Part shown: positions 18,288 to 44,078 of the stretch, piece after piece
Numbering within the stretch: the stretch's first letter is position 1
How the letters are laid out: every line of letters begins with the position of its first letter
From: Methanosarcina sp. DH2
GTDB lineage: Archaea > Halobacteriota > Methanosarcinia > Methanosarcinales > Methanosarcinaceae
Reading direction: 5' to 3'
Assembly: GCF_020804225.1 (NCBI RefSeq)
Contig: NZ_WJBI01000002.1
Coordinates: forward strand, 559,417-623,416
DNA length: 64,000 nucleotides
Notes under the pieces: model-generated
Databases searched by the model: none
What the model saw: the letters and a program-made list of their open reading frames with translations, nothing else
Told to the model about the DNA's origin: nothing
Position numbers and translations under genes: made by a program

Positions 18288-18528
18288 GAGCGTGTCTTAA
18301 AATTAAGTTTGATTCTACAATTGGGTCCGGACTTACGCATTTGAACTGAAAAAATGGTAACCTTAAATAGTTAAATACCTAAAATGCAATTTTTTAAAAT
18401 GATGCCTAATGTATTCTATTTTATACATTGGGCGAGTAAGTCCGATGTAGTAAATTTACGACATGAATTTGAAATTAACGTTGCCTATTGTCCAATTGTA
18501 GAAATGGTTTGAATTTTAAGACACGCTC
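18288..18528. mobile_element. MITE-like element, 241 bp
   Basis: The ends are GAGCGTGTCTTAAAATT and its reverse complement, followed inward by a second matched block (TTCTACAATTGG / CCAATTGTAGAA), so the inverted repeats extend about 40 bp. TTA stands directly outside both ends (18285-18287 and 18529-18531), a likely 3-bp target duplication. Inside, 18328-18444 is a 117-bp unit bounded by CGGACTTACGC and GCGAGTAAGTCCG, similar to the ends of the elements at 42766 and 43385. There is no transposase frame, so it would be moved by an element elsewhere. Confidence 0.8.
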
Positions 18529-41990: not shown

Positions 41991-42765
41991 TTAAACAAAA
42001 TCTATGCCGGTAATTAAATGATTTAAGTAATAATGATAAAGCCGGCTCCTTTTTCATTCCCTGTTTAATTGTCGGACACCCATTGTGAAGCATTATGCCA
42101 GCTTCAGCTTTGTTCTTGTTCACTTTGTATCGGTTCATGTAAGGGTATTGGTCGGAAACTCTGCTTGTTTCTGATAACGATACTGTATCTATATTTGAAA
42201 ATAAGGTTATTCTTTCTTTTTCAGGTCTGTTTTCGGATCAAATTTAATATTTACTCTTTAAGAAACGCCTTTTCCCTTAATCCAACTATTTAATCCTCTT
42301 TAATATAGAGTTTTTAAATAAATTTATCCTAAAAAGCTTCATTGATCTTATTTTGAGTTTTTTTAAATCTGGCTCGTACGACAAGGATGAGAAACCAATA
42401 GCACTAATAATCACCTGTTGAATTAAGAGATTTGACCTGCAAAGTTGATTGTACTTGATTTTGTGCCTTAAGTGAGCAATTAATACTGAATTTAAGTTCT
42501 TGTCCTGAACTTTAAAATTTACTTTTTTAAATTCTGGCTCATTTTTCCTGTTCAAATACACGGCTCTTAAGGGTTCCGATAAGGGTTAATCATGTTATTT
42601 GAAATCATATCCTGGATTAAATGTTATATAAAGCTTCTTTTATAAATTCACCGAATTAAAACCCGGTATTTTTATAAGTATGCTTTTATTTAATCCCGCT
42701 AATTTCAGGAATGTCAGTCGGCGGATAGTCGACAGGACAATTAGAGAAGACCATTAGAGCAAAGC
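41991..42765. other. non-coding spacer
   Basis: AT-rich, without a convincing gene; a 91-codon minus-strand frame (42286-42561) has no ribosome site or family match. It ends at the first of two related MITEs. Confidence 0.4.
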
Positions 42766-42882
42766 AGGACTTATGCTTTTGAGCTAAGAAAACAGTAGCA
42801 TGAGACTCCAAAAAATCTAAATCATAGTATTTGTGACAGAATTGTCTATGCTATCTTTTTGACCTCATGGTATCTAAGTCCT
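42766..42882. mobile_element. MITE-like element A, 117 bp
   Basis: It begins AGGACTTATGC and ends TAAGTCCT, an 8-bp terminal inverted repeat. Its interior (ACAGTAGCATGAGACTCC, then ATCTAAATC) aligns with the reverse complement of the element at 43385. It has no coding capacity. The two copies flank the coiled-coil gene in opposite orientation. Confidence 0.65.
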
Positions 42883-42942: not shown

Positions 42943-43332
42943 ATGGGTAAACTAATATTTGACAGACTAAAAAAGATCACGTGTATGTTTATACTGATTT
43001 TTTTTGTGATGTCATTTACAGCTACGTCAGTAAGCGCAGAGTCAAGTGATCAGAAATTACAGACATTAAACAATGAGAGAACGCAGCTGGATGCACAGAA
43101 GACTGATTTAGAAAAAGAAAGACTGAACCTGAATGCAGAGAAGAAGACATTAGAAGAAAAGAAGAAAAAATTGGGCAACAAAAAGAAAAATGACAAAGAA
43201 TATCAGAACTGGCTCAATAATTATAACAAATGGCTGAGAAAATATCAGAAATGGGAAGCCAAGCACAAGAAATGGTCCACCAGAAATCATGCATGGCAGG
43301 TGAACTATAATAACTGTATGAACAGCCGTTAA
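42943..43332 (+). CDS. secreted heptad-repeat protein with Leu and Trp zippers
   Basis: This 129-residue protein has a signal peptide (about 1-32, cleavage after VSA). The mature part is one long charged helix. Leucines stand exactly seven apart at 42, 49, 56, 63, 70 and 77. After a Lys-rich hinge, tryptophans stand exactly seven apart at 90, 97, 104, 111 and 118, with Tyr or His three residues before most of them. Both series fit a coiled-coil core, the second built on Trp. Composition is Lys/Asn-rich, and a lone cysteine ends the chain. No family recognised. MITE-like elements lie on both sides. Confidence 0.72.
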   Translation: MGKLIFDRLKKITCMFILIFFVMSFTATSVSAESSDQKLQTLNNERTQLDAQKTDLEKERLNLNAEKKTLEEKKKKLGNKKKNDKEYQNWLNNYNKWLRKYQKWEAKHKKWSTRNHAWQVNYNNCMNSR

Positions 43333-43384: not shown

Positions 43385-43516
43385 TAGGATTTACGCGCCT
43401 GAGAAACAAAAATGAAGCACGAAGATATGTCATAAAGTGTAATTTAAACTCATAGTGTAATTTAGACTCTTTGACATTTCATGCTACCTGTCCTCATTTC
43501 AGGTGCGTAAGTCCTA
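43385..43516. mobile_element. MITE-like element B, 132 bp
   Basis: Ends are TAGGATTTACGCGCCTGA and TCAGGTGCGTAAGTCCTA, matching over 18 bp with three mismatches. The reverse complement shares the interior block ACAGGTAGCATGA with element A. It also contains two short direct repeats (AGTGTAATTTA). No transposase frame. Confidence 0.75.
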
Positions 43517-44078
43517 TTTATATATAAACTCCTCTCCCTTTAACTCCGTTTGTTCAATTTTCACGGAGTTTTCCCTTTAGATTTATTTTTCTCCACAGAT
43601 CAAATGGTAATTGCAGTCATAGGCCATCCGTTTCCGTAACGGCATCTTCTTTTTCTGAAGTTTTATGATATCTTTCAGGTCTAGTTCTTTAATATTTTTG
43701 AATCCTGCTACCATGAAATATTTAAACATCTTTTCAGGCAGGACTTTATGGTGGTTAGGGGGGAAAAATGCCTTCTCTATCGATAATTTTATAAAATACT
43801 TGTTTATATATTTTGAGTATAATAATCCTGTCTTCCGTTTTAATAGATATGTTGAGTCTTACATATCCGGAAGTCGCAGTGTTCTGGCTGGTGTTTCTTT
43901 CCGGCCTCCTGTCATTTGAGGGGTTTCTATCCCTTAATTGGAATTTCACCCTTTGAATCCCTCTGGAACTCCCTCTGGAACTCCCTCTGGAACTCCCTCT
44001 GGAACTCCCTCTGAATCAAACCACAAATCAATAACTTTCTGCTAAAAAGTTACTTATAAATACAGTGTATCCTTCTGC
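43517..44078. other. non-coding spacer upstream of fmd
   Basis: It contains short frames without support, the 12-bp tandem repeat listed separately, and at 44052-44064 a TATA-like ACTTATAAATACA that is the best promoter candidate for the fmd operon. Confidence 0.45.
43959..44016. repeat. 12-bp tandem repeat, four copies plus a partial
   Basis: CCCTCTGGAACT repeats exactly at 43959, 43971, 43983 and 43995, with a partial fifth. It lies just upstream of the fmd promoter region. Confidence 0.92.

Follow-up and report, generated by a model that had tools for sequence, protein, structure and literature searches.

An exported-type Methanosarcina protein with regular leucine and tryptophan heptad rows, predicted to fold as a single antiparallel hairpin

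Tryptophan is rare in the cores of coiled coils. The designed Trp-zipper, a GCN4 variant with Trp at its core positions, forms a pentamer, and in the classical parallel leucine zipper Leu occupies position d while position a is mostly hydrophobic. Pentamers of the Trp-zipper type occur in designed nanoparticles (PMC4619341). We report a gene at 42943-43332 of a window of 64,000 nucleotides (the whole stretch of DNA that was analysed) from Methanosarcina sp. DH2, the product of which, referred to below as the DH2 protein, resembles the designed Trp-zipper in having Trp at the core of successive heptads. It differs in being natural and in being predicted to run antiparallel within one chain; moreover, the designed protein carries Trp at both a and d, whereas the DH2 protein has one Trp per heptad and the other core position of its second arm is Tyr/His. 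The leucine zipper pattern does not apply either, since the residues at +3 and +4 of every core Leu in the first arm are polar or charged. With prefoldin beta and an Skp/OmpH-like protein the DH2 model shares the antiparallel alpha-hairpin (Z 9.9 and 9.4, values near 10 being common for helical bundles), but no profile or PDB sequence match links them to the DH2 protein, the fold similarity is generic, and the continuous Leu/Trp-Trp and Glu-Tyr/His rungs are the DH2 protein's own feature. The best superposition of the model was on the iSH2 domain of PI3K p85 (Z about 11 over 96-103 residues), a eukaryotic cytosolic domain with 12-14% identity, and reflects a common arrangement that does not imply relatedness. 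FtsL and DivIC likewise begin with a hydrophobic segment and continue as a coiled coil, and gave weak profile matches that were rejected (TIGR02209, 21.6 against a curated cut-off of 42.45 bits, and PF04977, 15.8 against 28.9 bits, respectively); these are signal-anchor proteins, whereas the DH2 leader looks cleavable.

The frame is a real gene under purifying selection. Specifically, dN/dS is 0.41 between the DH2 gene and L037, a relative with 73% identity, and lies at 0.13-0.23 for further close pairs, on the basis of which translation of the frame is very likely. Orthologues hold the same position in many species, beside pilin-like and DUF5803 genes or beside transporter genes, and in the window genes for a DUF5803 protein and a type IV pilin-like protein lie upstream and an FmdE-family gene lies downstream. 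A twelve-base tandem repeat (TCCCTCTGGAAC) at 43946-44017 separates the hairpin gene from the FmdE-family gene. The coding sequence and its parts are:

42943-43332, plus strand: coding sequence of the putatively secreted heptad protein, 129 aa, with an ATG start and an open frame, under purifying selection and with orthologues
42943-43038, plus strand: leader or putative signal peptide, residues 1-32, with an A-x-A-like motif (SVSA followed by ES), as read from the sequence
43045-43167, plus strand: predicted first helix (AlphaFold2), residues 35-75, with the Leu row from L42 to L70 and L77 just beyond it
43168-43194, plus strand: predicted turn (AlphaFold2), residues 76-84, with the constant 12/13 spacing
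43195-43326, plus strand: predicted second helix (AlphaFold2), residues 85-128, with the Tyr/His row (87, 94, 101, 108 and 122), the Trp row and C125

Leu stands at residues 42, 49, 56, 63, 70 and 77 and Trp at residues 90, 97, 104, 111 and 118, the latter being all five Trp of the protein, and both rows have the exact period of seven given in the initial annotation. This heptad spacing is far beyond chance: when the mature part (about 97 residues) was shuffled 200,000 times, a Leu run of equal length appeared at a frequency of 1e-5 and an equal Trp run never did. Tyr or His three residues before most Trp, described in the same annotation, was confirmed for four of the five (Y87, Y94, Y101 and H108, the exception being N115), and Y122 extends the row. 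The proposed signal peptide also agrees with our reading, as the leader is signal-peptide-like and ends in S-V-S-A; it is conserved in all family members aligned. The protein has two cysteines, C14 and C125, and with C14 lying within the leader C125, the candidate for the crosslink suggested in that annotation, is the sole Cys of the mature chain, common only to the DH2 protein and L037. The step from L77 to W90 is 13 and not 14, so the Leu and Trp runs do not form a single continuous register. The length differences among aligned relatives are mostly entire heptads, and the DNA retains a residual 21/42-base periodicity.

A family profile built from 19 members (E below 1e-5) matched 28 of 30 Methanosarcina genomes, several by the leader only, and by our reading of the match table the hairpin itself is present in about 22 of the 30. 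Of 392 Halobacteriota genomes drawn, 13 matched the profile, all 13 of them Methanosarcina, and no relative was found in the viral contigs and plasmid collections searched. The family is large, undescribed and, as far as searched, present only in Methanosarcina. Searches of Pfam, NCBIfam, PHROGs and PDB sequences returned only weak coiled-coil matches, below the cut-off where one exists, and the original statement that the protein belongs to no recognised family held up, with no fit in Pfam, NCBIfam or the PDB. Literature searches, for which the gene numbers used as queries were partly estimates, gave no paper on the family, and neither the literature nor the records searched held an expression or proteomic entry for it. 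A DNA pattern of six Trp heptads was also run against the 392 Halobacteriota genomes and the viral contigs; its matches outside the family in readable loci were rejected because by eye they resemble repeats read in a probably non-coding frame. An apparently unrelated Trp-every-seven stretch (WKEVLSKWEELPPEWEELLSEW), seen as matched DNA only, occurs in two Halobacteriota genomes outside Methanosarcina (G147:C7:2177-2305 and G167:C94:14774-14902).

Two subfamilies can be distinguished, A, which includes the DH2 protein, and B, which has repeats of a heptad such as KWDNDKR, and up to nine consecutive Trp heptads occur in the family. The DH2 protein has the features by which the family is defined, i.e. 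the leader, two heptad rows separated by a gap of 12/13, mostly acidic residues at core+3 and Tyr/His at core-3. In most relatives both arms carry Trp, and in the clade of the DH2 protein the first arm carries Leu. In the tree, the DH2 protein and its 73%-identical relative group with Leu/Ile-cored relatives in a clade (99/95) that is nested among all-Trp members, and because of this nesting the ancestral state was most likely Trp in both arms, from which the Leu row of the DH2 protein would be derived. As to the Trp period, on which the initial annotation had staked its reading, homologues retain the period of seven but the residues vary: at some Trp positions Phe, Cys, Ser, His or Leu is found in seven orthologues, and the DH2 clade uses Leu in places that are Trp in most relatives.

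The two rows had been proposed to form a single coiled coil with a five-heptad Trp core, i.e. an oligomerising zipper, and the strict heptad spacing and coiled-coil-like character in this proposal are supported. The stacked-zipper arrangement itself is not, as AlphaFold2 predicts the DH2 monomer to be an antiparallel intramolecular hairpin with helices at residues 35-75 and 85-128 (arm pLDDT 90-97, pTM 0.65) and the model superposes on the solved antiparallel hairpins named above. An all-Trp relative was also predicted to have two helices, with four weak structural neighbours only (Z 7.6 and below); both are monomer predictions from shallow input alignments (9 and 6 sequences, respectively). 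From the last core residue of the first arm to the first core residue of the second, the spacing is 12 in 30 members and 13 in the other 16 of the 46, in a scan that accepted 11 to 15. In subfamily A the lengths of the two arms are correlated (rho 0.79). Matched arm lengths as a family-wide rule were rejected (rho -0.07 over all 46), because the first arm of subfamily B is extended. A hairpin accounts better than a continuous rod for the phase break of one residue, for the constant 12/13 gap and for the arm matching in subfamily A. In the predicted structure each heptad run makes up one arm of a single antiparallel hairpin, a fold that is well supported as a prediction.

With the arms antiparallel, core would face core and core+3 of the first arm would face core-3 of the second. 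In the DH2 protein this register pairs residues summing to 167, namely L77-W90, L70-W97, L63-W104, L56-W111 and L49-W118, and also E45-Y122, E59-H108 and E66-Y101. The core rungs would be Leu-Trp in the DH2 protein and Trp-Trp in most relatives, with intermediate rungs of Glu/Lys/Gln against Tyr or His, and three of the seven intermediate rungs of the DH2 protein are acidic-Tyr/His. In 14 members of subfamily A, one or two per lineage, 57 of 83 intermediate rungs are acidic-Tyr/His (shuffle mean 3.6, maximum 10), and the corresponding figure for 23 other members, mostly of subfamily B, is 79 of 136 (shuffle mean 8.1). What these shuffles examine is position-specific placement; a hairpin explains it but is not proved by it alone. 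In L004 and L010 Cys stands opposite Cys at the third rung.

The mature chains are basic in all 46 members (pI 8.8-10.1), and in M. acetivorans the S-layer protein carries a tether of about 60 residues with negative charge (PMC12369344). Taken together with the signal-like leader, these data favour a cationic rod at or under the S-layer, and we infer, with confidence that is about evenly balanced, an exported basic hairpin rod that binds acidic envelope material. The gene would give rise to an exported, strongly basic protein, the mature part of which would form a single antiparallel alpha-hairpin of roughly 6-7 nm, built as a ladder where Leu-Trp rungs (Trp-Trp in most relatives) alternate with Glu/Lys/Gln-Tyr/His rungs. 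Seven-residue units would be gained and lost entire, such that the register is kept. Outside the membrane the cationic rod would most likely bind the S-layer protein tether or acidic glycans, and it may act as a spacer, a cross-linker or a stress-related envelope protein.

In two of the three locus types the hairpin gene has, within a few kb, a neighbour whose product combines an exported domain with a membrane helix and a DUF7343 winged helix, which is in keeping with an envelope role; these are most of the subfamily B loci and a second A locus, and most of the DUF7343-linked B loci also encode, close by, a small exported protein with GYxKGY repeats. The stretch compared at the DH2 locus has neither a DUF7343 gene nor a GYxKGY gene, and the DUF7343 matches of this genome are on other contigs, a point against the envelope reading. 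The cluster of Trp-hairpin gene, DUF7343 membrane protein and GYxKGY protein is conserved at L063, L064, L095, L099, L102 and L103 and further at L105-L107, L109, L110 and L112-L114.

The main rival to the cationic rod is a holdase-type chaperone under the S-layer, similar to Skp, Spy or prefoldin, in which the basic hairpin would cradle unfolded exported proteins via its aromatics. The presence of prefoldin beta and an Skp/OmpH-like protein among the structural neighbours, the basic charge of all members and the membrane winged-helix gene near two locus types, which suggests regulated expression, are consistent with such a role, but the fold is generic, no sequence link to these chaperones was found and in the predicted structure the aromatics lie buried between the two arms and not exposed; we therefore consider a holdase unlikely. 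A parallel oligomeric coiled coil of two to five chains, in which a Leu zipper is followed by a Trp zipper, would agree with the exact heptad spacing, and a designed pentameric Trp-zipper coiled coil exists. It is nevertheless quite improbable given the phase break of 13, the hairpin predicted for the monomer and the matched arms of subfamily A; moreover, in a parallel homo-oligomer every other first-arm core layer would place Glu on Glu, while the antiparallel register sets Glu against Tyr/His. Equally hard to credit is a secreted low-complexity protein that evolves fast and lacks a specific partner, where a 21-base unit would have expanded by slippage behind a shared leader under loose constraint: the periodicity of the DNA, the variable copy number and length and the similar leader of unrelated repeat-rich exported proteins point in this direction, but the dN/dS values (0.13-0.41), the constant turn spacing, the conserved core positions and the orthologues kept in place across many species argue against it. 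Finally, a continuous aromatic stack with a job of its own, i.e. charge transport or oxidant quenching across the envelope, could be imagined from the Trp on both arms of most relatives with Tyr rungs between them, and from the extracellular electron transfer of Methanosarcina, the route of which is unresolved in type I species (PMC12369344), but half of the Trp are missing in the DH2 clade, which counts against this most improbable reading.

The gene product is a real and unusual protein, with a fold of a known kind, as predicted, and a novelty that lies in the regular ladder of Trp/Leu and Glu-Tyr/His. For protein design, the family provides natural Trp-cored hairpins, predicted to be antiparallel, together with natural Leu, Phe and Cys replacements. 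In addition, it draws attention to a hitherto undescribed group of exported proteins in the little-known Methanosarcina envelope, with a common leader and, near some loci, a membrane regulator.

The gene is bracketed by two copies of a MITE-like repeat of 113-128 bases with the ends GGACTTAYGC...GCRTAAGTCC, and it is preceded by a conserved element:

42767-42881, no strand assigned: upstream repeat copy, 115 bp, with the ends GGACTTATGC ... AAGTCC, degenerate
43387-43514, no strand assigned: downstream repeat copy, 128 bp, strongly palindromic, with TA on both sides (fold z-score -6.1)
42698-42801, plus strand: upstream element (model R1), conserved in 14 relatives, the 3' part of which overlaps the old MITE-like repeat

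A third copy of the repeat is present in the window at 18329-18443. Several copies are palindromic and flanked by TA, and TA flanks are expected for MITEs of the IS630/Tc1 type. The end pattern was found in all 30 Methanosarcina genomes, with 1-110 matches each, and the reversed control gave none. A strict 10-base end box lies within 700 bases of 21 of 23 subfamily A genes, by our own count, as against 0 of 23 others, and the density of end boxes is 0.48 per kb near all hairpin genes and 0.03 per kb elsewhere in those loci; since many boxes are inherited by orthologues, these figures represent few independent cases. Bracketing by repeats was also seen at one other gene. The repeat could not be linked to an autonomous transposase: a 1.1-kb interval between two repeats, the only one inspected, contains a gene for what looks like a molybdate-binding protein instead.

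The 14 relatives of the upstream element include two at another locus, and weaker matches to it precede some other genes of the leader family as well as genes for other exported proteins. The element was rejected as a structured RNA (RNAalifold energy only -3.9, almost no covariation), a search of the upstream region against Rfam gave nothing, and a riboswitch is not claimed because part of the element is the old MITE-like repeat. A promoter-consensus scan showed no excess.

A leader of about 33 residues, MGKxxFDRxKKxxCxxxLVFFVxSxTxASVSA, is common to otherwise unrelated exported Methanosarcina proteins at roughly 40-55% identity. The proteins that share it carry different repeats (L015, L017, L018, L019, L031, L032 and L033), and there are many leader-only matches. 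A similar leader is also found in the exported protein L104 (G028:C2 near 3361077), in which Trp recurs every nine residues in DGWKDGKNR repeats.
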